Source: a virus
Length of the DNA: 25,654 nucleotides
Virus record (IMG/VR): IMGVR_UViG_3300026182_000007
Span: 1 to 25,654 of that record
Strand: one strand, 5' to 3'
The notes under the pieces are model-generated. The model had not been told where the DNA came from, ran no database searches, and saw nothing but the letters and a program-made list of their open reading frames with translations. Positions 1,737 through 15,555 of the stretch are shown piece after piece. The stretch's first letter is position 1; each line of letters begins with the position of its first letter. Made by a program: the position numbers and the translations under genes.

Positions 1737-2129
1737 GTGCCATCATTTGTCTCGTTTAAAGATCTTAAGATCACATTTAAGCCACACCCAATAACTAATG
1801 ATCTGCAGTTATCAAAAGATGAAGCTGCAGTAAAACAAGCTGTTATTAATTTAATAATGACAGTACCTGGTGAACGTCCATTCCAAAGTGCGATTGGATC
1901 CGAATTAAATCGATTATTATTTGAACAATTTGATTATGGTGTAGCTGCACAAATAGAAACTGAAATTAAGAGTACAATTAATAACTTTGAGCCAAGGGTT
2001 AATATTAATAGTATTGACGTAACACTTGATTATGACGCTAATGCATTTGCAGTGCATTTAGAATATGATATACGTGGTCGCACAGATATGCCTAATAGTA
2101 TCGATTTCCTACTCCAGAGAACACAGTAA
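1737..2129 (+). CDS. 25: Baseplate wedge subunit gp25
   Basis: 130 residues, the normal size for gp25 (T4 132). gp25 is the small lysozyme-fold-like wedge protein that joins gp6 and gp53 in the inner baseplate and starts the sheath. The family hallmarks are the opening SFKDLKITFKPHPITNDL, then DEAAVKQAVINLIMTVPGERPF ending at residue about 50 with the conserved 'GERPF', then GSELNRLLFEQFD and a C-terminal beta pair before FLLQRTQ. The start is a GTG with no Shine-Dalgarno; I chose it because the protein then begins MPSF, as I recall for cyanophage gp25. The TAA overlaps the gp6 ATG (TAATG), so the two wedge partners are likely translated in a coupled way from the late promoter just upstream. 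Confidence 0.95.
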   Translation: MPSFVSFKDLKITFKPHPITNDLQLSKDEAAVKQAVINLIMTVPGERPFQSAIGSELNRLLFEQFDYGVAAQIETEIKSTINNFEPRVNINSIDVTLDYDANAFAVHLEYDIRGRTDMPNSIDFLLQRTQ

Positions 2130-3940
2130 TGAAGTATACCCAATATAGTAATTTAGATTTTGAGAGTATTAAGGTAACTCTTAGAGAGTATTTACGAGCA
2201 CAAACAGACTTTACTGATTTTGATTTTGACGGTTCAACGTGGAGTAACTTACTTGATGTTTTAGCGTATAACACATATTATACAGCATTTAACACCAATA
2301 TGGTGGTAAATGAATTATTTTTAGAATCTGCTACGTTAAGAGATAACGTAATTACATTAGCAAAGCAATTAGGTTATAAGCCTAAGTCGGTAGTTGCACC
2401 AGAAGCAGTAGTAAACTTTAAAGTAACATTTACGGGAACATACCCATCTTCAATAATTCTTAAGAAAGGTACAGGTTTTGTAACAACATTTGATGATACA
2501 TTGTATAGATTTGTTGTTATTGATGATTGGAAAGTTCCTGTTACTGCGGGAGAAGCATTATTCAATAATATTAAATTATATGAAGGTACTGTAGTAGAAG
2601 ATACGTATGTAGTTAAAACAGCAAATGCGAGACAGAAATTTGTTTTAAAGAATGGAAGTGCAGATACTAGTAGTATTAGAGTAAAAGTTTATCCTACTGC
2701 AACTTCTTCATCTTTTGTATATTACACTCAAATTGATAATATTATCGATATAGGTAGTAAGGATAATATTTTCTATGTTGATGAAAGTTTAGATGAACAA
2801 TATCGTCTTTTCTTTGGGGATGGTGTTATTGGTAGAAAATTAGTTAATAATGAATTAGTTAGGATTTCATATCTAACTACAAGTGGACCAGCAACTAATG
2901 GTGCTTCTAAGTTTTCATTTAGTGGTATTTTATTAGATGTGAGTGGTAATAGTTACCCAATGCAAATATCTAATGTTACTACTGTCTCAAATGCCTCTGG
3001 TGGATCGGAACTTGAGAACATAGACCAAATCAAGTTCAATGCTCCAAAACTTTACTCATCGCAGAATAGAGCAGTTACAGCAGCAGATTATGGAGCAATA
3101 GTACGTAAGATCTATCCATCAGTATCTGATATCATTGTTTATGGTGGAGAAGAGGAAAGATACCCTGAATTTGGTAAAGTAAAGATTTGTATTAAACCAA
3201 ATAGCGGATCTAATCTATCAGCGTTTACAAAACAAGATATTGTACAAAAATTAAAGGATTATGCTGTTGCTTCGGTAACACCCGAAATTAATGATCCTTC
3301 GGTTGTTTATATTGAATTGGATAGTAAAGTAACATATAGTATAAACAAAACTAATCAATTCCCAGAGGAAATAAAAACAAAAGTTATTAAAGTAGTAGAT
3401 GATTACTCACATCAATCAGAAACAGAGAAATTTAACGGTAAATTTAGACACAGTAAGTATATTGGTGTAATTGATGAAGCAGATCAATCAATTATTTCTA
3501 ATATAACAACAGTTATGTTGAGGAAGGATTTTTATCCTGCCATCAACTCAACATATTTTTATGAATTATGTTATCAAAATTCATTTAAAAAGTCTTGTGC
3601 TGGACCAGTTATCCAAAGTACTGGGTTTGTTGTTTCCGAGTATCCAAATTACGTTGTTTATTTTGAAGATAGGGATCTCGGAAATGAACTGGGATCTATT
3701 GTCCTATATAGAATAGATTCCGCTACTGGTGATAAAATTATCTTAAACGATAGTCTTGGAACAGTAGATTATGATAGAGCGGAAATATTGTTACATGATT
3801 TAACTATTATCAAAGGTACAATGTTTGATAATAGAATTGAAGTTCGTGCCGAACCTGCAATTTTTGATATTTCTGCTGCACGAAGTCTTTATTTAGATGT
3901 AGATATATCAAATAGCAAATTTGCGGTATACCCAGAGTAA
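2129..3940 (+). CDS. 6: Baseplate wedge subunit gp6 (baseplate J-like)
   Basis: 603 residues (T4 gp6 660). gp6 forms the continuous inner ring of the baseplate and belongs to the gp6/Mu gp47 baseplate-J family. In order: a helical N-terminus with LLDVLAYNTYYTAFN at about 41-55 and NELFLESATLRDNVITLAK with LGYKPKS at 61-87, both conserved in phage gp6; the strand-rich middle with RLFFGDGVIGRKL (FGDG at 229-232); and the conserved RAVTAADYGAIVRKIYP at about 313-330, followed by VYGGEEERYPEFGKVKICIKP. Residues after about 470 are a beta-rich C-terminal part that joins neighbouring subunits. The ATG overlaps the gp25 stop. A 6-base gap separates it from the next gene, so gp25, gp6 and the gp7-like gene form one transcription unit. 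Confidence 0.95.
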   Translation: MKYTQYSNLDFESIKVTLREYLRAQTDFTDFDFDGSTWSNLLDVLAYNTYYTAFNTNMVVNELFLESATLRDNVITLAKQLGYKPKSVVAPEAVVNFKVTFTGTYPSSIILKKGTGFVTTFDDTLYRFVVIDDWKVPVTAGEALFNNIKLYEGTVVEDTYVVKTANARQKFVLKNGSADTSSIRVKVYPTATSSSFVYYTQIDNIIDIGSKDNIFYVDESLDEQYRLFFGDGVIGRKLVNNELVRISYLTTSGPATNGASKFSFSGILLDVSGNSYPMQISNVTTVSNASGGSELENIDQIKFNAPKLYSSQNRAVTAADYGAIVRKIYPSVSDIIVYGGEEERYPEFGKVKICIKPNSGSNLSAFTKQDIVQKLKDYAVASVTPEINDPSVVYIELDSKVTYSINKTNQFPEEIKTKVIKVVDDYSHQSETEKFNGKFRHSKYIGVIDEADQSIISNITTVMLRKDFYPAINSTYFYELCYQNSFKKSCAGPVIQSTGFVVSEYPNYVVYFEDRDLGNELGSIVLYRIDSATGDKIILNDSLGTVDYDRAEILLHDLTIIKGTMFDNRIEVRAEPAIFDISAARSLYLDVDISNSKFAVYPE

Positions 3941-3946
3941 TATTAG

Positions 3947-6900
3947 ATGAATACACAGATTTCTTCTCTAATTAAAGATCAGCTGCCAGATTTTATTGTC
4001 ACTGAGTATGATAATTTTGCTAAGATTCTTGAGGGTTATTATCATCAAATAGAAAGTACAGGACAACCTGTAGATCTTATTAGTAATCTCTCGACATATC
4101 GAGATATAGATTTTTACGAAAAGCATTTATTAAAAGAAAGAACCACATTAGAAGTTTCTATTAATACTACTGATGAAACAATCACAGTAGCAGATGCTCA
4201 ATCATTTCCAGATAGGAATGGTTATATTAAAATTGGTGACGAAATTCTGTTCTATAAGGAAAGAACAGACACACAATTTAAGGAAGTATCACGTGGTATC
4301 AGTGGATCTACCAAATTAGGTGATTTATATACAGAAACTAGTTTTATTTCTTCTGAATCTTTATCACACACAAAAGGTGTGAATGTAGATAATTTAAGTC
4401 ATTTATTCTTATATGCTCTAGTAAAGTCGTTTGAAAGTGAATATCTAGAGTCTTTTCCTGAAAAATATTTAAAAGAGGATGTTGATAAGAGAACTCTTAT
4501 CAAAAACATCGGAACTTTCTATAAAGTAAAGGGTAATGATAAATCCATTAGGTTTATCTTCAATACTATTATTTCAAAGAGTGCTGATGATATTCCAACA
4601 ACATATAATCCAAAAGACCACACAGTAAAGATCTCTACATCTGATTGGGATTCTTCTTATGGCATCCAAGCAGTTGTTTTATCTGGAGATGCAAACTGGT
4701 TAATTGGAGAAAAGATAGTACAGCAGGGAGATCGTAATTTACCAGGTGTTTCTTATGCTTCTGCTATTGTAGAGAATGCATATCAGATTGGAACAGTTAA
4801 TGGATCTCCATTATGGAATTTTATATTAAACCCATTTACCATTAATGGCGATTTTGTTATTCCACAACAAACAGTTTTAACTAAACCCATTTCGCAGTCT
4901 ATGGCGAATGGAGATTTAATTACTGTTGATTCTACATTTGGTTGGAAGGATCAGGAAGGAATGGTTGTTGTTAATGGTGAGCAAATCAAGTATTCTGCTA
5001 AATCAGCACGACAATTCACTATTAAAAATCGTGGAGTCATCTATCAGATACACAGTAAAGGTGATAAAGTTTACAATTACTCCACAGCAAAGGGTGTAAC
5101 ATCTAATGGAGTGGTTTCTTTATTGGTTTATGGTATTTTAACAAGTTTAGATACTGATTCGTCAACAAATTTATCACAACCTGGTGATAAGATCCAAATT
5201 TCAAAACCAGGATTTGAAACTAGAGATCCTATACTATATGATGAATTTAGTCAAAATTATAGATGGAAAGTAAATATAAATGCTGTTGGTCCATCAGTCC
5301 CTCTAAACCCAGTCATAGCAGCGAGTTTGAGCGACTACATTGCTGATGTTTCATCGATATATGAAGATGAGCAATATTATTATATTGCTACTTCTAGTTA
5401 TCCTTCTACTCATATACTACCATCTACTGTTAGTGCCACATTAGTAGATCCAAATTTATTAAAACTTATTCCCAAAAAGACAACTACTACTACTGAGGTG
5501 TTTAGTACACCCAGAGATGAAATTGGTGTTTTTGTTGATGGAACAATTGCATATAGTTATAAGGACAAAAATTTAATTGAATATGGTCCTATTACTAAGT
5601 TTAATATAAAAAATAGAGGTGCTGGTTACCAAAAACCTCCATATGTTCTAATTGATGGGAATCCCAATAAAGCAACTGCTGTTTTAACTGGTAATAGTGT
5701 TAGTAATATTGTAACAATAGATAAAATAAATTACACCACTGCACCTTCAGTAGAAATTGTTAGTGGTAGGAAAGCAGATCTAAGACCAATTATAACATCT
5801 GGTGCGGTTACTAGTATACTTATTTTAAACGGAGGAGAATACTATTCTTCACCTCCCGCTATTATTATTGGTGACAAAGTAGGTAAAGGAAAATTTGCTG
5901 AATATATTGCAGTACTTTCCGATGGAAAGATTGTAGATACAATTAAAATTGATGGTGGAAAATATTATACGCAAGAGAATGTTACTATAAATCTGGTGCC
6001 AGATGCTTATTCTAATAGTGCTACAGCGACAGCAGAAATTTATGAATGGACTAAAGACAGATATGTTACCAACAAACAGAATTTTGACAACAACGGTGGG
6101 GTAGTTGTCACTAATAATGATAATGAGAGTCATTATGGTGTAGTTGTTAATCCCAAACTTTTAAGATATAGATTAGGTGATAGTTTAACATCATCAACAT
6201 TAGAAGAAACTACTGTTGTTGCACACTCACCTATTCTTGGTTATGCTTATGACGGTCATCCCATATATGGTCCATATGGTCATTTAAATCCTCTTGATAA
6301 GAATTCTGATATTGTCAGAATGAATAGTGGATATAATCTGAAGGCAGATAGATCAGATGGTCCTGTTTTGGACAATGCTCCATATCCTATGGGCACATTT
6401 ATCGATGACTATCAGTGGGTTGCTGATGTTAATACAGGTAAAACTAGGTTAGATCGTAATAATGGTAGGTTCTGTGTCACACCAGAATATCCTGCTGGTG
6501 TTTATGCATATTTTTTGACTATTGATGAAGATCAGGAACCAGTATTCCCATATATCTGTGGATATAATTTTTATTCGATTCCAGTAGCATCTAATTATGA
6601 ATATAACATCAAGCAAAGTTCTTTGCCAAGAAATGCCAAACGTCTTTATATTTCAGGTACTTTAAAGAATGGTGATGGAGAAATTGCTATCATCGATGAT
6701 GTTTCATCAGGATCAGTCTCTTCTGTTGTTGTAGAGGACTCTCAACCATCTTTTACGGTAGGTTCTAGGATTTATGTTGATAATGATAACACAGGTGGTA
6801 AAGGCGCTGCTGGGGTAGTTTCCTTGACATATGGTAAATCTGTCAAATCTTTAGAATCTAGAGCACCTGCTGCAAATTTATTGACTTCATTGACACCATT

Positions 6901-9900
6901 ATATTCATTTGCTGGTGATATTATCACTCAACCTTCTACTGGTGCTACTGGTGAATTATTACGTGATATTATTGAAGAAACATCTTTTGTTGTTAGAAAT
7001 GTACAGGGCAAATTTGAACCAGAATTAGATCTTACTGTAGGAACATCATCCAAAACAATTAATTCTAGTTCTGTTGTGATGAACCTTTTACTTTCACAGG
7101 ATAGTAGTTATACAAAGGATGCTACTTTATCATTAGTTAAAAAAGCAGATACTAGTGATGTTATTGCTAGTGGAAAAGTTTTATCAGCGACAAATGATCA
7201 AAATGCTGTTCGTGTACTTGTAGAAGTTGGAGATTTCAACGATTTTATCAATTATCAGGATGGAGATACTATTTTAAAGAGTAGTAATGTTGCTAATACA
7301 GCAGGAACTGAAATTGAAATCGTAAAGCAGTTAAGTGAAGATATTGTTATTATTAGCGTACAGGATAATATTGCTATTGTTGAGACTGATGGTGATCACA
7401 ATATGGCAGAAGGAGATGTTGCCAATATTGAGGTTGATCCTGATGAATCAATAACGGAATCAACATATTGGGTAAGAAAAAAGAAATTCCAAGAATTTGA
7501 TTTAGTTCCACAAGGATTCAATGGAAAATTGAATGATACTGGTATTGGACATTCTAGTTTAGTTGCATATGGTAGAGATTATGTTGCTGGCACATATAAT
7601 GATGTAGAGTTAATTTTTAGTGACCATAATAAAGATAGAGAAAATATTGGTGCTGTAGGTGCATCAGGAAATGCTAAAGGAAAAATTATTGTTCCTTCTA
7701 CTAATTTTGATGGTAGTGGTAGTATTTCATCAATTGAAATCATTGATGGTGGAAAAGGATATTCTGTAGATGATATCGTGACAGTTAACCCTACTGATGT
7801 TCCTAAGATAGATCCTTCTGCTTCAAATGTTACTATTTCACCTCCACCAACAGCACATTACCAGAATGAAGATATAGCAGAATCTTTTGCAATTTATAAG
7901 TTTACTTTAGGTTCTCCTGATCCAACATGGCACCCAACTATACAAGATGCATGGACAGATTTTACTACTAATGTTCTGCCATCACAAGTAGGTGTATCAT
8001 TTTGGACTTATCAGGATCATGAGTTTTTAGTTGCTGATGGTAGTGCAATTTCTGTAAATGATCATTTAATTATTGATAATGAAATTGTAAATGTAGTAAG
8101 CGTTACAGGAGATACAATTAAAGCTAGTCGTACTCATTTTGGTACATTTTCTACAGAACATATTGTGAATTCTGGGGTTTCCCTTTTAGAACCCGGCAGT
8201 ACTCCATCAGATATTTCTTCTGATATAGGATACTTTGATGATGTTATTACTGTTACTACGACAACATATGCTTTTGGTGATTATATAAAAATTAATAATG
8301 AGATTTTAAAGGTTGTAAGTCTATCTGGAAATGATCTTACTGTCGTTAGAGGACAAGTTGGAACATATCCACAATTGCATTATACTGGAGATATGGTTCA
8401 GTTATACACATATACTGAAAATGTAACTACACTAACTACAGTTGCCCCAATTGCTACTAATGTAAGATTGTGGTATGTCAGTAAAAATGATAATATTTTT
8501 GAAGTAACTTATTCGATATCTAGTGATGCACCTGCTCTGACAGATCAGATGTGGTTTACTGGAGATAATAATTCAGAGATTAACATTGGTGCTGTTTTTA
8601 AAGAGTATCCTGATACCGCACCAAAACCACAATATAGACTCATTATTGATGGAGTTGAAAATCCATCGTACACAATGCGAGTTGGTTCTGTTTTTACAAT
8701 GGATGCTGTTGATTCGCATCCAATATGGATTGTTCATGATTATACAACATCACTAGCTAGTGATGGTGTGGCATTAGTAATGGATTCTTATAATGCAGTT
8801 AGTGGTGTTACTAATAATGGAATTAATCAACCTGAAGCAGCTCCACAAGAGCAAATAGTATTTACACCACAGCATCCAGGAACATATTATTATGTTTGTG
8901 CCACGCATCCCGAAATGAGTGGTATTATTACCGTCGAAGGTGATGCGAGTAATTCTATTCCTTTGATTAGTGTTCATAATATTGGTTTGGGTGTTGATAG
9001 AACAGATGCAATATTAGATACGGTATATTCATTAGCAGAAGGAGATCAATTAAAGGTTAATGATGAAATTTTAAAGATTATTGCTGTTGATAATACAACT
9101 AGAAAGGTTACTTTCGATAGGGCACAAGAAAATACTATTAAAGTTAATCATCCTTTAAATGATAATATAGTTGCTTATAGACCACACTATAGATTTACTT
9201 TCAATCAAAAGATTTTTGGTAGTGATGCTAATGATCCTAGAGTCATTTCATATGACAAGGAAACTCATAAGTTATTAGTTGCTTTCGATTTTATACATGA
9301 AGGTGCTACTAACCCTAGAGTAATTACAGAAATTTCTTCTTTCTTTGATCACAGTAATCCATCAAAGACAGTTTCTATCTCCAAAGCATATGATATATTA
9401 GAGAAATTACAATTCTCACCAGATAATACCAATTTTGAAACTAATCCAGTATTACAGATTCAAAAGTATTATTTTTACAAATTTGATACTAGTCATCCAT
9501 CTATGCTTGGTTCTTATTTGGATATTTCCACAAGTCCCAATTATAATATCTTTACTGAAGAGAAAGAAGTTGGATTGATTGAACCTGGCAATGCAGGTGC
9601 TCAAGTTAGAATTAGATTGGGTTATGGTCCTAATATTGGTGATGTAAAGAGAAAAACAGTTAATTTTATATCTTATTACTACTTCTTAACTACAGAAGAA
9701 ATTGATACTGGCGGTTCTTATTTGAGTGTGCGAGAAGATCCCCTCGCTGGTGATAATACTATTATATACACAACTGATAATAAGTTTGTTTATAATTTAG
9801 ATAGAGTTCCACAATATGATGGAACTGGTGATATTAGATATAGAGGAAGATCTGTTGGCAAAATTGCTTCTATTGCATTAGACAATTTGGGTTCCGATTA

Positions 9901-12900
9901 TATCTCTATGCCTAGAATCAAAGGAGTAGTTCCTGCACCAGAGTACAAAGCAGAAATAGAATGTATTAGAGATATTTTAGATCTAAATGTAAAGGAATTA
10001 GTTCTCAAGAGTTCTGGTAAAGGATATTCAAAACCAGAAGCAGTAGTTTCTAATGGTGATGGCACTGGTTTGAAAATTAAAGTAACCAATGTTAACGGTT
10101 CTATTGTTAAGGCAGAAATTATAAGCAAAGGATCTGGATACACATACACACCAACAATTGATGTTATTGAAACTGATAATAAGATATTTTTTAAATCAAA
10201 TGAAATTGGTATACCGAAAAGTGTTAAATTCATTAAATATGGTTCTGGATATCACAATGATAATTCCATTATTCCATTTTTTACGTCACCTTATATTTTT
10301 ACCCTATCAAATTTTGATACAGATGCTTTTCGGATTGGGGAAAAAGTTGAGCAGCGAGTTAATGGATTAGTTGTAGCATCTGGTACTGTTGCTAAGAATG
10401 GTTGGACATTTGGATCCAATATATTGAGAATGGATAACATCACTGGTGTTTTTAGAGAAAATTATTCTATTATTAATAAGAATCGTGGAAACAAGACTGC
10501 TTTTATTGTTTCTATTGAATATTCCAAATTTAATCCTATTACTACAACTAGGGAAAAACAATTAGGTAGATTTTCTTCAAATAGAGGATACCTTAATTCT
10601 GTTAATCAAAGAATTACTGATTCTGATTTTTATCAAGATTATTCTTATGTGATTAGGTCAAGAACTCAAATCAAGGATTGGCGTAATGCAATCAAAGAAA
10701 CAACCCATCCAGCTGGATTTAAAGTATTTGGTGAGGTTTATTTAGAATCAGAAGCATCTACATTAATGGATGTTGCTCAAGACAATACAGAAAAACACAC
10801 AACATATGTTGTTCTTCCTCCGGTAAAAGTTACATCTCTTTCCACAAAGAGAACAATTACACAGAGATATTTCACTGCAATTAATCATCAAATTGAAAGA
10901 GGACAAGGTTCTGTCGCATTCGATGAATTTGATGAAACTTTAACAAGAACCAGAGAAATTACATTATCACCTGCTTTTGATGGTGTTTTTGATTCTTCAA
11001 CTGGTTTGCAAGTAGGAACAACTCAATTTAGTATTATTGATAAAAAAACTGGTCTTGCTTACCAACCATTTAATGAGCAGGAATTAATGATTACTATTGA
11101 TGGTGTTGCTCAGCGGCCAATAACTTCATTTAGAGTTATTGGTAATCAAATCAAATTCTACGAACCGCCACTTGGTGAGAGGACTTCAGAAGGTCAAATT
11201 GTATCTCCACAAACTTTTTATGGTAGAGCATTTAAGTTTTCTGAAGATATTAATAATGTTCGTTATTTGAAGAGGTTGAAGAATATATCAGATGATTTTG
11301 ATGGCAGACAAAAGAACTTTGATTTGTATTGGGAAGATGGAAGTATTGTTAAAACAGATTTGGATGAGAACTTATTGATATACCTTGATAGTATACTACA
11401 GCAAGGATCTTATACTATTAAAAGATTTGTTAGTAACAATAAGACAGATAGACTTATATTCAAGAAGGCTCCGAAAAATTATGCAGATCTGCATAGTGAT
11501 GCTCCAAAATCTTTGCAAAATGAGCAATATTTTTATGGTCAAAGTGTTGGAAATTATCAAAGGATGCATATTGATGAGAATGTAATTCCTTATAGTCGCA
11601 CAAATTCTTATATTATTTTCGATAAAGAGAATAGCGTAAAGGGATTTGATGATCCATTGTATGCATATGTTTATGTAAATGGTGTTTTACAACAAGATTT
11701 AGATTCTTATATAATCTCTGGACCATCCATTAGATTCCACAAACCACTAAAATTCAGCAAACAATCTGATGGATCTTATATCACTGATAAAGTAGATATT
11801 TTGTATTTTTATGGAAAGAATTATCAACCAACAGCAACTTGTTTTGATTTTGAAAGTGATGTTTTCTATAACAGAACAACAATTACATTTGATGGCGCGA
11901 ATACTTATGATAAATTTTTAACATGGTTTGGTCCACAAGCATCATTAAGTACTTACGTTTACCAAATTCTTGATGGTAAAAAATATTTGTTTGGAAATGT
12001 GTTGCGTGTTGTTCCATCTGCAGGAAATACGTGGGTGATGGATTTACAATCACAAAATGTAAAGTTCAATGTTAATGGTAGAGTATATTTTACAAAATCT
12101 CGTTCATTAGATGGTTCTAATGAAATAGATATTTCTTTCGATGATATTAATATTCAATATAACACTAATACACAAGGAGAAAGACTTCTGAATAGATCAG
12201 AAATTAATATTTTATCATGGGCAGAAACTGGTGATAACTTAGATAGTTATCAGCATACAGGGGAATTGTTTAAAGAACACCCAACACTTAAAAAGAATGA
12301 TCGTATTAAAATTGATGGTGAGTTTGCATATCGTGATGTTAAGAGTGTACCTTTCTTTGCGAAATCAAAAGAATATAATGATGGTCATCAAGTATCAAAT
12401 AGTTTCTTTTCTAAAATTGCTGTAAGTGAATATAATGGAAAAAAACTTGGTGAAGGATTCAGTATTACTGCATCACTTACAAATGATACCATTAGTAAAC
12501 TTGACTGGAATAGAAGAGATCTTGAATTATATTTTGATAATAACCTTTTATTGAGTCCAACTGCTTATAATTATTACACACCACCCATTATCAATTTCAT
12601 ACCAGTTGATGGTAATGGTGGTGGAGCAAAAGCACAAGTTTTGGTTTATGGTGGACAAATCATAGACATTATTTTAGTTGATGGTGGATCTGGTTACACA
12701 AATTCACCAAAAATTGTAGTTTCTAGAGGATACGATATTATTCGTATTGATGATACTTTTGAATCTTCTGCTACAATCAAACTTCATAATGCTGGTTATC
12801 AAGGAAGTTGGGCTGGTATGAATCCTAGTACTGTTTGTACTATTAATTTGTGGCGGCGAGAATTAATGGAATCTTTTGCTGTCTTTATTCTTCCTCCCGT

Positions 12901-13621
12901 TACGGGACAAATTACTATAGTTGGTCAAACTCTTATTGCGTTTGATCCAGGTTTAAATGCTTTAGAAAGATCTATTACTCAAATAGTGACACCTGCTGAT
13001 GAAAGCGTTGCGATGTCAAATGATTCCACTACTTATATTGAGAATGATATTGAATGTAAAATTAATGCTTCTTACTTAACATATGAGCATCCTGTTACTA
13101 AACATACTTATTGCGGTATGCTTGATATGTTACAAGAACCAGTAGAAAATCCATCATTGTATAATCAAGGTAAATTAGGATCAACTGTCGCTTCGTTTAT
13201 GGAATATCTTTATACTGATGTTGGTACATTGGGTACTGGTATTAGTTTAGAGCAATTTGAAATTTTCTACCCATTCATTTTGATTAATCAAAATCCTGGT
13301 AACTGGATGGAAAACTATGAGGTTGATTATAGTTCTATAACAACCACTGGTGTATTATTCAATCCAGGCATTCCTTCCATCTCTAATCGTGCTGGATATC
13401 TTAGTAGTGTTTTTAATCCAGGAGATACTTGGATGTACATTACAGGATCTACATCACACTTCCCTGCAACTGGTAAATTATTAGTTAATGGAGAGATTAT
13501 TAGGTATAGTGGAACTCTCAATGATGATCGTTTTATCATATCTGAAAGAGGTGTTGATGGAACTACAGAAGTATCTCATGATGCTCTTGATTATTTCCGT
13601 GAGTTAGGCAAGTATAATTAA
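3947..13621 (+). CDS. 7: Giant gp7-like baseplate wedge protein with YHYH and cupredoxin-like domains
   Basis: 3,224 residues, about three times T4 gp7 (1,032). gp7 is the backbone of the wedge that nucleates its assembly with gp10, gp8 and gp6. The N-terminus (LIKDQLPDFIVTEYDNFAKI; NLSTYRDIDFYEKHLL; then FPEKYLKEDVDKRTLIKNI near 170-190) is the gp7-type start. A conserved core recurs at about 2215-2260 (YQDYSYVIRS, IKDWRNAIKETTHPAGFKVFGE). Between and after these lie inserted beta modules: six 'NGEI-Y/RG-GT-H' units, several GxGY repeats (about 549-700, 1240-1285, 1973-2105, 2886-2945), a YHYH-type domain (757-880), a cupredoxin-like segment (1575-1665), and three 'NGVLQQ' units (2379-2625). 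The frame is uninterrupted over 9.7 kb. The gp7 assignment rests on the N-terminus, the core and the position between gp6 and gp8. Confidence 0.85.
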   Translation: MNTQISSLIKDQLPDFIVTEYDNFAKILEGYYHQIESTGQPVDLISNLSTYRDIDFYEKHLLKERTTLEVSINTTDETITVADAQSFPDRNGYIKIGDEILFYKERTDTQFKEVSRGISGSTKLGDLYTETSFISSESLSHTKGVNVDNLSHLFLYALVKSFESEYLESFPEKYLKEDVDKRTLIKNIGTFYKVKGNDKSIRFIFNTIISKSADDIPTTYNPKDHTVKISTSDWDSSYGIQAVVLSGDANWLIGEKIVQQGDRNLPGVSYASAIVENAYQIGTVNGSPLWNFILNPFTINGDFVIPQQTVLTKPISQSMANGDLITVDSTFGWKDQEGMVVVNGEQIKYSAKSARQFTIKNRGVIYQIHSKGDKVYNYSTAKGVTSNGVVSLLVYGILTSLDTDSSTNLSQPGDKIQISKPGFETRDPILYDEFSQNYRWKVNINAVGPSVPLNPVIAASLSDYIADVSSIYEDEQYYYIATSSYPSTHILPSTVSATLVDPNLLKLIPKKTTTTTEVFSTPRDEIGVFVDGTIAYSYKDKNLIEYGPITKFNIKNRGAGYQKPPYVLIDGNPNKATAVLTGNSVSNIVTIDKINYTTAPSVEIVSGRKADLRPIITSGAVTSILILNGGEYYSSPPAIIIGDKVGKGKFAEYIAVLSDGKIVDTIKIDGGKYYTQENVTINLVPDAYSNSATATAEIYEWTKDRYVTNKQNFDNNGGVVVTNNDNESHYGVVVNPKLLRYRLGDSLTSSTLEETTVVAHSPILGYAYDGHPIYGPYGHLNPLDKNSDIVRMNSGYNLKADRSDGPVLDNAPYPMGTFIDDYQWVADVNTGKTRLDRNNGRFCVTPEYPAGVYAYFLTIDEDQEPVFPYICGYNFYSIPVASNYEYNIKQSSLPRNAKRLYISGTLKNGDGEIAIIDDVSSGSVSSVVVEDSQPSFTVGSRIYVDNDNTGGKGAAGVVSLTYGKSVKSLESRAPAANLLTSLTPLYSFAGDIITQPSTGATGELLRDIIEETSFVVRNVQGKFEPELDLTVGTSSKTINSSSVVMNLLLSQDSSYTKDATLSLVKKADTSDVIASGKVLSATNDQNAVRVLVEVGDFNDFINYQDGDTILKSSNVANTAGTEIEIVKQLSEDIVIISVQDNIAIVETDGDHNMAEGDVANIEVDPDESITESTYWVRKKKFQEFDLVPQGFNGKLNDTGIGHSSLVAYGRDYVAGTYNDVELIFSDHNKDRENIGAVGASGNAKGKIIVPSTNFDGSGSISSIEIIDGGKGYSVDDIVTVNPTDVPKIDPSASNVTISPPPTAHYQNEDIAESFAIYKFTLGSPDPTWHPTIQDAWTDFTTNVLPSQVGVSFWTYQDHEFLVADGSAISVNDHLIIDNEIVNVVSVTGDTIKASRTHFGTFSTEHIVNSGVSLLEPGSTPSDISSDIGYFDDVITVTTTTYAFGDYIKINNEILKVVSLSGNDLTVVRGQVGTYPQLHYTGDMVQLYTYTENVTTLTTVAPIATNVRLWYVSKNDNIFEVTYSISSDAPALTDQMWFTGDNNSEINIGAVFKEYPDTAPKPQYRLIIDGVENPSYTMRVGSVFTMDAVDSHPIWIVHDYTTSLASDGVALVMDSYNAVSGVTNNGINQPEAAPQEQIVFTPQHPGTYYYVCATHPEMSGIITVEGDASNSIPLISVHNIGLGVDRTDAILDTVYSLAEGDQLKVNDEILKIIAVDNTTRKVTFDRAQENTIKVNHPLNDNIVAYRPHYRFTFNQKIFGSDANDPRVISYDKETHKLLVAFDFIHEGATNPRVITEISSFFDHSNPSKTVSISKAYDILEKLQFSPDNTNFETNPVLQIQKYYFYKFDTSHPSMLGSYLDISTSPNYNIFTEEKEVGLIEPGNAGAQVRIRLGYGPNIGDVKRKTVNFISYYYFLTTEEIDTGGSYLSVREDPLAGDNTIIYTTDNKFVYNLDRVPQYDGTGDIRYRGRSVGKIASIALDNLGSDYISMPRIKGVVPAPEYKAEIECIRDILDLNVKELVLKSSGKGYSKPEAVVSNGDGTGLKIKVTNVNGSIVKAEIISKGSGYTYTPTIDVIETDNKIFFKSNEIGIPKSVKFIKYGSGYHNDNSIIPFFTSPYIFTLSNFDTDAFRIGEKVEQRVNGLVVASGTVAKNGWTFGSNILRMDNITGVFRENYSIINKNRGNKTAFIVSIEYSKFNPITTTREKQLGRFSSNRGYLNSVNQRITDSDFYQDYSYVIRSRTQIKDWRNAIKETTHPAGFKVFGEVYLESEASTLMDVAQDNTEKHTTYVVLPPVKVTSLSTKRTITQRYFTAINHQIERGQGSVAFDEFDETLTRTREITLSPAFDGVFDSSTGLQVGTTQFSIIDKKTGLAYQPFNEQELMITIDGVAQRPITSFRVIGNQIKFYEPPLGERTSEGQIVSPQTFYGRAFKFSEDINNVRYLKRLKNISDDFDGRQKNFDLYWEDGSIVKTDLDENLLIYLDSILQQGSYTIKRFVSNNKTDRLIFKKAPKNYADLHSDAPKSLQNEQYFYGQSVGNYQRMHIDENVIPYSRTNSYIIFDKENSVKGFDDPLYAYVYVNGVLQQDLDSYIISGPSIRFHKPLKFSKQSDGSYITDKVDILYFYGKNYQPTATCFDFESDVFYNRTTITFDGANTYDKFLTWFGPQASLSTYVYQILDGKKYLFGNVLRVVPSAGNTWVMDLQSQNVKFNVNGRVYFTKSRSLDGSNEIDISFDDINIQYNTNTQGERLLNRSEINILSWAETGDNLDSYQHTGELFKEHPTLKKNDRIKIDGEFAYRDVKSVPFFAKSKEYNDGHQVSNSFFSKIAVSEYNGKKLGEGFSITASLTNDTISKLDWNRRDLELYFDNNLLLSPTAYNYYTPPIINFIPVDGNGGGAKAQVLVYGGQIIDIILVDGGSGYTNSPKIVVSRGYDIIRIDDTFESSATIKLHNAGYQGSWAGMNPSTVCTINLWRRELMESFAVFILPPVTGQITIVGQTLIAFDPGLNALERSITQIVTPADESVAMSNDSTTYIENDIECKINASYLTYEHPVTKHTYCGMLDMLQEPVENPSLYNQGKLGSTVASFMEYLYTDVGTLGTGISLEQFEIFYPFILINQNPGNWMENYEVDYSSITTTGVLFNPGIPSISNRAGYLSSVFNPGDTWMYITGSTSHFPATGKLLVNGEIIRYSGTLNDDRFIISERGVDGTTEVSHDALDYFRELGKYN
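5590..6045 (+). repeat. GxGY beta repeats in the gp7-like protein (first cluster)
   Basis: Residues about 549-700 hold three to four units of the pattern 'I-I-(N/D)-G-G-x-Y---P-V-I---(10-20)-G-V--I': FNIKNRGAGYQKPPYVLI, INYTTAPSVEIV, ILNGGEYYSSPPAIII and IKIDGGKYYTQENVTI. The same pattern returns at nucleotides 7665-7800, 9865-10260 and 12600-12780 of this gene. Such repeats are beta-structured surface modules common in marine phage structural proteins. Confidence 0.75.
6215..6592 (+). other. YHYH-type domain inside the gp7-like protein
   Basis: Residues about 757-880. It opens with HSPILGYAYDGHPIYGPYGH (Gly765 to His779), the signature opening of the YHYH family ('GYA-DG-PIYGPYG'). It continues with PMGTFIDDYQWV, then LDRNNGRFCVTPEYP (Asn839-Gly-Arg), GVYAYFLT (the position of the family's YHYH, here Tyr853-Ala-Tyr-Phe) and VFPYICG (866-872). 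Cys843 and Cys871 might pair. YHYH domains are common in secreted proteins of marine bacteria and have no firmly known activity that I can cite. The match is by recognisable motif order. Confidence 0.8.
8669..8941 (+). other. Cupredoxin-like (type 1 copper) segment inside the gp7-like protein
   Basis: Residues about 1575-1665. After a strand (YTMRVGSVFTMDAV) comes SHPIWIVH (His1591, His1597), then a loop containing SGVTNNGINQPEA, then QIVFTPQHPGTYYYVC, closing with CATHPEMSGIITVEG (Cys1651, His1654, Met1657). The Cys-x2-His-x2-Met loop has the same spacing as amicyanin, and 'HP-x-W/Y-I ... TNNG ... PGTYYYVC--H--M-G-I-V' is the pattern of single-domain cupredoxins. With His1591 as the fourth ligand, the type 1 copper set is complete on paper. 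Whether metal binds is not shown. Confidence 0.78.
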
Positions 13622-13683: not shown

Positions 13684-15555
13684 ATGGCTGCTATAATCTC
13701 CGAAAAGTTTAGAATTTTTAATGCAAAGCAGTTCTTAGAGTCTTTGACTGAAGGCGCTACGGACACATCCGCAGATCGATCTAGGATGTATTTCTTTGTA
13801 GGACGACCTCAAGCATGGAATTCGTTCCTAGAAATTTATTCCATCGATGGTGGATCATTCAGTGCAGGTCAATCAGTATATGTTGGTGCTGATTGGGCAA
13901 ACGCTACATTTAAAGGAACTATCGAACAAGTACTAGATAATAGTTTAATTTTATCTTCTATTGGTCCTTTACCAACATCAGCACCATCATTGGGATCTTT
14001 ACTAAAGGGTTATGATGGTTCTGCAAATACGAACGTTACAGCAAATACTGGGGTTTATAGGTATTCTAGGAATGATGTTCCTCCAGTTCCTTTAGATAAC
14101 CAGGTAGAAAAATACGATATATATGACGATATCATTGCATCTAAGAGGATTACTTCTTCTTATGCAAGATCAGTAATTCGGAGATACAATTACGATCAAA
14201 TCACTAATCCTAGATTTGATATGTGGAAACCTGATTATTCTGATACTCCAGCTGGTGGTGGTCAGATTGGTAAATCCACAGGTACGGGTGCTACTTCGAT
14301 TTCTAACGCAAAATTTTACGTTATGAATCAAAGGTATGAGGTGTTTAAGTGCATCTATAATGGAGAAAGTGTTGCAAATCCAAGTGGAGTTGATGTTCAA
14401 CACGAACCATTTACTGCTCCTTCTGCTGGATTGGGTACATATGATGCTGCTACACGCAATTTCACTGCTCCTGATAATTCATATATTTGGAAGTATTTGT
14501 TCACCATCCCAACAGATGATGTCTTAGCATTTCTTTCAACTGATTTTATGCCTATTGTTGAATCTGCTGAACCCACTAGGGTTGCTACCGAAGCGGCCGC
14601 AGTTGATGGATCAGTTGATGTTGCTGTAATCAAGAATGTTGGTGTAGATCTTCCTAATGCAGGTACATATTATGCACCAGTTCTTGGTGATGGTACTGGT
14701 GGTATTGTTAAAATTGTAACCACTGGTGGTGCAATTGATACTGCTGAGTTGGTTCAAGTTGGTTCTGGTTATACCTATGCCACATGTCCTATTATAACCG
14801 GCATTCCTCTTGGAACTGCAGGTAGTACAGAAGCAATTGGTTTGTTCTCTGATAGTGCATTTACTACTTCAGAAACAGTAAATTCATCTGACACTCCTTC
14901 TTTAGAGATAATTCTTTCACCACAGGGTGGACATGGTTCCGATTTAGAGACAGAATTGAATGCTAAGCGAGTAATGACAAATATTCGCCTCACTTTCATC
15001 GAAAGTGCTGGTGATTTCCCTGTTGATAATGATTTCCGTCGTATTGGCATTATTAAAGATCCTCTTATTCCTGGTGGCGGTGATTTTGCTACCGATGATA
15101 CTCTTAACGGATTGTATGCTGTTAAGATTACAAGTACAACAGCAGATTATATTCCTGACGAAACAATCAGTCAGACAGTTGCTGGAGGGACTGCATTGGG
15201 TCAAGTAGTATCTTGGACGCGAGATGTACCTGGAACTGTTCCGACACCTTCTACACCCGGTAGCGGCGTGTTGAAGTACATCCAATCACCACAAGTACAT
15301 CAAAACAATGGTGTTGTTAGAGCATTTGAATCTAGTGCTGCTAATGCTATTACTGGCGATCAATCCAATGTACCTGGAACTGTCCATCATGATTATGCAA
15401 ATGGTACATTATTATTGGGTTGCACTTTTAATAGTGGATTGGCATCTCCCGAACTTCAAAACAATAGTGGAGATCTCATATACATAGAGAACAGAAGACT
15501 AATTACCAGAGCTCCTGATCAAATCGAAGATATTAAATTAGTCATCGAATTCTGA
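13684..15555 (+). CDS. 8: Baseplate wedge subunit gp8
   Basis: 623 residues; T4 gp8 is 334, but cyanophage gp8 proteins are, as I recall, around 600. gp8 binds the gp7/gp10 part of the wedge. Visible family features are the N-terminus AAIISEKFRIFNAKQFLESL, RMYFFVGRPQAWNSFLEIYS (about 34-55), and the long conserved DVPPVPLDNQVEKYDIYDDI with RSVIRRYNYD and NPRFDMWKPDY (about 130-190). Further on are KFYVMNQRYEVFKCIYNG and SYIWKYLFTIPTDDVLAFL, the characteristic 'Y-V----YEVFKC--N' and 'YIWKYL-TI' pair. Residues about 314-376 are an inserted GxGY repeat (VQVGSGYTYATCPIITGI). The C-terminus (YIENRRLITRAPDQIEDIKL) is also typical. It has its own tandem late promoters; the ATG lacks a Shine-Dalgarno. 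Confidence 0.9.
   Translation: MAAIISEKFRIFNAKQFLESLTEGATDTSADRSRMYFFVGRPQAWNSFLEIYSIDGGSFSAGQSVYVGADWANATFKGTIEQVLDNSLILSSIGPLPTSAPSLGSLLKGYDGSANTNVTANTGVYRYSRNDVPPVPLDNQVEKYDIYDDIIASKRITSSYARSVIRRYNYDQITNPRFDMWKPDYSDTPAGGGQIGKSTGTGATSISNAKFYVMNQRYEVFKCIYNGESVANPSGVDVQHEPFTAPSAGLGTYDAATRNFTAPDNSYIWKYLFTIPTDDVLAFLSTDFMPIVESAEPTRVATEAAAVDGSVDVAVIKNVGVDLPNAGTYYAPVLGDGTGGIVKIVTTGGAIDTAELVQVGSGYTYATCPIITGIPLGTAGSTEAIGLFSDSAFTTSETVNSSDTPSLEIILSPQGGHGSDLETELNAKRVMTNIRLTFIESAGDFPVDNDFRRIGIIKDPLIPGGGDFATDDTLNGLYAVKITSTTADYIPDETISQTVAGGTALGQVVSWTRDVPGTVPTPSTPGSGVLKYIQSPQVHQNNGVVRAFESSAANAITGDQSNVPGTVHHDYANGTLLLGCTFNSGLASPELQNNSGDLIYIENRRLITRAPDQIEDIKLVIEF

Follow-up and report, generated by a model that had tools for sequence, protein, structure and literature searches.

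We identified a domain that is almost certainly homologous to the cupredoxins, and which bears the ligand set of type 1 copper sites, in the interior of a 3224-aa baseplate protein encoded by a 25.7-kb viral contig fragment (IMG/VR record IMGVR_UViG_3300026182_000007, positions 1 to 25,654; this whole stretch of DNA is hereafter the window). Sequence comparisons place it in a widespread group of putative viral cupredoxin modules, fused to gp9 connectors, tail fibres and tail spikes. The known roles of blue-copper domains are those of electron carriers, in solution or in the membrane, and of components of copper oxidases. The open-licence literature that we searched contained no report of phage-tail cupredoxins, nor any description of blue-copper domains as conserved components of a tail, although this is weak evidence of absence. 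One paper on viral contigs with nirK (PMC8115048) and one on S-CREM2 (PMC10665884) turned out to be unrelated.

The gp7-position protein and its cupredoxin-like domain

The gene order of the window runs from a PAAR-motif protein (1025-1336) through gp25 (1737-2129), a gp6-like baseplate wedge protein (2129..3940, plus strand), the 3224-aa protein (3947..13621, plus strand) and a gp8-like baseplate wedge protein (13684..15555, plus strand) to a 2702-aa DUF4815 protein. This order matches that of S-CAM3 and S-CAM1 and points to a Kyanoviridae-type phage, whose host is inferred from its relatives. In S-CAM1 a ferredoxin-annotated gene (L006:908-1561) lies in the baseplate cluster between the PAAR gene and gp25, where the window has no counterpart. 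The 3224-aa protein matches PHROG 4406 (virion structural protein) and PHROGs 2885 and 708 (baseplate wedge), and its orthologues lie between gp6 and gp8 in S-CAM3, S-CAM1, S-PM2 and other phages, in some records under the name VrlC. As a large ORF between gp6 and gp8 that is homologous to cyanophage VrlC and structural proteins, it qualifies as a VrlC-type gp7-position wedge protein. T4 gp7 is missing from these phages and has apparently been replaced by VrlC (PMC7029224). The initial annotation had spoken of a gp7-like virion component; the location of the domain in the middle of a baseplate wedge protein is supported by the gp6/gp8 synteny and the PHROG matches, but homology to T4 gp7 has not been shown, and the protein is better seen as a predicted VrlC-type replacement standing in the place of T4 gp7.

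The cupredoxin-like domain spans residues ~1548-1668 (nt ~8588-8950, plus strand), as delineated by profile matches, an AlphaFold model and Foldseek. A type 1 copper domain had earlier been predicted at 8669-8941 (residues 1575-1665), a span which lies inside the domain and is slightly short, as it omits the N-terminal strands. The four ligands named with it were found exactly at their codons in the ORF at 3947-13621, all on the plus strand: His1591 (8717..8719), the predicted first, N-terminal copper ligand; Cys1651 (8897..8899), the predicted thiolate ligand; His1654 (8906..8908), the predicted second His ligand; and Met1657 (8915..8917), the predicted axial ligand, a Met at this position being usual but not obligatory in type 1 sites. 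The equatorial His, Cys and His follow the order and register of type 1 copper cupredoxins, and the closing loop, CATHPEM, has the Cys-x2-His-x2-Met spacing of amicyanin, just as had been proposed. Within the domain coding sequence, window positions 8744-8769 match their own reverse complement (26 bases, 92%) and contain an 18-base palindrome, catcactagctagtgatg.

A profile built from 37 viral domains, without any sequence of the gp7-position locus, matches residues 1570-1665 with the four ligands aligned (E=2.2e-16), and this is its only significant match among the 64 ORFs of the window. Searching the PDB with a profile of 48 viral copies recovered 37 distinct sequences at E<=0.001, all of them copper proteins or cupredoxins, including NirK (9e-8), rusticyanin (1e-6), plastocyanin, amicyanin and auracyanin. 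In the rusticyanin alignments that were inspected, the His, Cys, His and Met of the viral family are in register with that protein, His1591 falling on its copper His. The domain is present at the same place in S-CAM3 (50% identity) and S-CAM1 (43%), and the P-SSM2 tail spike carries related cupredoxin copies and scores above the Pfam Copper-bind cut-off (23.3 versus 21.2 bits). Alone, the window copy stays below the curated cut-offs of Pfam Copper-bind and Cupredoxin_1, so that standard annotation overlooks it, and single-sequence searches of Pfam, NCBIfam and the PDB gave copper-protein matches only below threshold. Assignment to amicyanin proper (TIGR02657 equivalog) was rejected at 19.2 bits against a cut-off of 110.2, the loop spacing alone being shared; we took the matches to Cep192, PstS and a toxin-subunit model for chance similarities. 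The agreement of independent-profile match, ligand register and ligand conservation bears out the earlier claim of a type 1 copper cupredoxin-like domain, with metallation unproven.

AlphaFold predicts a confident beta-sandwich for the window domain (pLDDT 87), whose best PDB folds in Foldseek are amicyanin and plastocyanin (probability 1.00, but TM only 0.38-0.41 and rmsd 7-9 A). For a shorter family representative (L044) the model reaches pLDDT 97.6, and each of its 50 listed PDB matches is a cupredoxin or a copper enzyme with a cupredoxin domain, rusticyanin scoring best (TM 0.54-0.63). Hence the cupredoxin fold expected from the initial annotation, a Greek-key beta-sandwich of about 8 strands, is supported by these models for the viral family, and more weakly for the window copy alone. 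Given the low TM and high rmsd of its top matches, which also count against a copper site, the window copy may deviate from solved cupredoxins, for example in the long segment that separates its His and Cys strands. The PDB matches of the window model include a cupredoxin-like protein with zinc, and the predicted site could be occupied by Zn or another metal.

The window copy shares with amicyanin, plastocyanin and rusticyanin the strand order, together with the amicyanin ligand order His...Cys-x2-His-x2-Met, and is linked to these proteins by the profile matches and, more weakly, by the fold matches. Unlike these proteins it has no signal peptide and is not a separate protein, being part of a virion protein; its segment from the His to the Cys strand is longer, and its orthologues often have an axial Ala. 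In most small cupredoxins the first copper His is followed by Asn, and His-Pro is known from multicopper oxidases. Position 1592 of the window protein is Pro rather than Asn, a further point against the copper reading.

Insertion and ligand conservation at the gp7-position locus

To avoid ligand-based circularity, orthologues were gathered with the 300-residue stretch that follows the domain; conservation counts from an earlier scan in which Cys and His were mandatory were excluded as evidence. The resulting 94 proteins (the window, 80 contigs and 13 phage records) comprise 46 with the domain, 47 with a junction of 3-7 residues in its stead, and one from a contig that is too short. In the window lineage the inserted cassette occupies residues 1289-1671 (7811..8959, plus strand; 381 aa between anchors), and in S-CAM1/S-CAM3-like phages it measures ~210 aa. 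These alignments, with their near-constant junction, show the cupredoxin domain to be a lineage-specific insertion in the gp7-position protein. Residues 1289-1550 (window 7811-8596), the cassette part upstream of the cupredoxin, show by eye apparent beta-type repeats like those elsewhere in the 3224-aa protein; S-CAM1/S-CAM3 lack this part or have a much shorter version of it.

Among 30 distinct orthologous copies, His1591 and Cys1651 are each retained in 29 and His1654 in all 30, whereas position 1657 is Met in 12, Ala in 17 and Thr in one. The free variation of His, Cys and His among homologues that would have refuted the initial annotation is therefore not seen; only the axial Met is variable, and its replacement by Ala in more than half of these copies speaks against the copper reading. 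One copy without the first His (L028) lies at a contig end. When the window is compared with its relative L004, the domain is 83.6% identical with its ligands kept, as against 96-97% in the flanks, and dN/dS is 0.091/0.123 (about 0.74) in the domain versus 0.013/0.060 (about 0.21) in the flanks. Thus change is faster within the domain than around it, while the ligands stay.

A single orthologue, L128 (IMGVR_UViG_3300020478_000060; 78% identical over the flank), has kept the domain and lost the site, with His replaced by Asp, Cys by Val and Met by Ala. This weighs against copper binding and raises the alternative, which we regard as unlikely, that the module is a cupredoxin-derived beta-sandwich serving as an Ig-like structural or adhesive element, metal-free in the virion, whose His, Cys and His persist as core packing. 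The unconserved Met of this locus would fit such a module, as would the copper-poor cytoplasm in which phage proteins fold, which counts against copper loading in general. At the same locus, though, His, Cys and His belong to the best conserved of 125 positions, and L128 itself changed three of its four site residues together with other signature residues remaining, as would be expected if these residues were kept for metal and not for the fold.

Related modules in gp9, other tail proteins and cells

Cyanophage gp9, the baseplate-tail fibre connector, ends in the same domain (L122:4989-5303; L124:3998-4309; also L286-L290 and further IMG/VR loci of L291-L370). In a set collected by the gp9 N-terminal region only, with the ligands unused, 75 of 80 distinct C-termini are cupredoxins and five are unrelated. 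His, Cys, His and Met are all invariant in these 75, whereas the residues that separate Cys, His and Met are variable. This pattern, which packing in a metal-free module does not readily account for, is the strongest evidence, albeit from alignments alone, that the site is used. In T4-type phages of Aeromonas and E. coli the match to cyanophage gp9 is confined to the N-terminal part, and for this reason the cupredoxin C-terminus of cyanophage gp9 looks like a cyanophage-side replacement.

In all, 353 of 50,697 phage records, mostly of Synechococcus and Prochlorococcus phages, contain the sister module in gp9 connectors, fibres and spikes, with up to five cupredoxin domains in one locus. Several loci (L100, L063, L049, L076) have tandem domains, some of which lack ligands (e.g. 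YYQCGVNSSM in L100); in L089 and L100 some tandem copies are without any ligand, which again would suit a metal-free structural role. The modules of gp9, the P-SSM2 tail spike/fibre, the S-SCSM1 long tail fibre and a P-SCSP2 structural-region protein are homologous to the window copy and have the full ligand set; they differ from it in residing in other proteins and positions (C-terminal in gp9) and in a shorter loop, and are annotated merely as connector, tail fibre, spike or hypothetical. In the Actinomycetia phage DSL-LC01 (L009, 7041-8411) a cupredoxin is nested in the YHYH domain of a 456-aa protein beside collagen-repeat genes. The window protein also has a YHYH domain (PF14240, residues 679-861, 5981..6529, plus strand; E=6.9e-26), but apart from its cupredoxin. 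A regular pairing of the two domains was rejected, as a YHYH-like motif was matched by regular expression in only 6 of 121 domain-bearing ORFs.

Among cellular proteins, the closest relatives that we found are cupredoxins of Nitrosopumilales and proteins of marine Flavobacteria, the latter with up to 70% identity to the viral query and with N-termini similar to lipoprotein signals. Their domains have the same ligands as the viral family, but in contrast to the viral copies these are cell-surface proteins of bacteria and archaea, the archaeal ones being membrane proteins with longer Cys-to-Met loops. A quick FastTree analysis grouped the gp7-position copies in one clade (support 0.99) and placed the flavobacterial copies among the phage tail copies, leaving the direction of transfer unresolved.

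Predicted copper occupancy and role

On balance we favor, with moderate confidence, the interpretation that a cupredoxin-fold domain with the type 1 ligand set was accommodated in a tolerant loop of the gp7-position wedge protein as an exposed, copper-stabilised accessory module. Its optional insertion, its fast evolution and the sister copies in fibres and connectors lead us to infer that it faces outward on the baseplate. It would then capture a single copper ion, whether after lysis or out of seawater, and this metal would lock the beta-sandwich, leaving the domain as an exposed accessory surface, for host or particle binding or for spacing, and not as an electron-transfer protein. That copper is bound in the virion is somewhat probable in our estimate; we know of no such virion on which metal has been measured, and found no such measurement in the papers searched. 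The preference for an accessory or adhesive role over a redox one is only tentative. The roles suggested in the initial annotation had likewise been offered, rightly, as speculation.

In T4, gp9 is the point where fibre signals enter the baseplate. A trigger or sensor can accordingly be envisaged for the domain, found in a wedge protein and, in relatives, in this fibre connector: the Cu(II)/Cu(I) state of what are by nature redox sites, or transfer of copper to a site on the host surface, would alter baseplate conformation or sheath firing upon contact with the photosynthetic outer surface of the host. We consider this improbable. About half of the surveyed gp7-position orthologues lack the domain and L128 has lost the site, so neither is required for firing, and no partner docking surface has been identified. 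A required redox trigger is thus unlikely in the gp7-position protein, and a more active role in gp9, where the site is invariant, cannot be excluded.

HxH iron sites in marine phage tail fibres have been proposed to act as a metal Trojan horse or decoy (PMC11705849). By analogy with these, copper on the virion might be recognized by a metal-uptake or metal-binding surface protein of the host, and the cupredoxin modules do sit on fibres, spikes and connectors. The iron-binding fibres (T4 gp37, Alteromonas phage R22Y) resemble the present case in that a metal is proposed on a phage tail, but they would hold iron along a trimeric needle by His pairs, with an unrelated fold and unrelated ligands. 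In contrast to iron, copper is often toxic for marine Synechococcus. With no host receptor known and analogy as its sole foundation, we give this possibility little credence.

With such a domain recurring in other tail proteins of these viruses, its site fully conserved there, marine phage tails may carry copper, although no metal has been measured. The broadest form of this idea, in which cyanophage virions are copper metalloparticles, with gp9 of most marine cyanomyophages and some gp7-position wedges, fibres and spikes holding loaded type 1 sites that act in host attachment or baseplate switching, is speculative and in our judgment rather doubtful. In T4, gp9 is a trimer at six positions. 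Were the gp9 site to hold copper in Kyanoviridae, every particle of these very abundant ocean viruses would bear several baseplate copper ions, which would affect host recognition, virion stability and marine copper speciation. For experiments, the gp9 C-terminus is a better target than the window copy, and L128 provides a ready-made negative control. The family also allows fibre and connector regions to be named that so far carry the label hypothetical. Adjoining gp9, a 1154-aa baseplate wedge protein contains a cupredoxin-like stretch that is more divergent (NHP...FSYFCRYHALMGN; L122:6267-6683 and the L124 equivalent), and several such sites may therefore be present on one baseplate.
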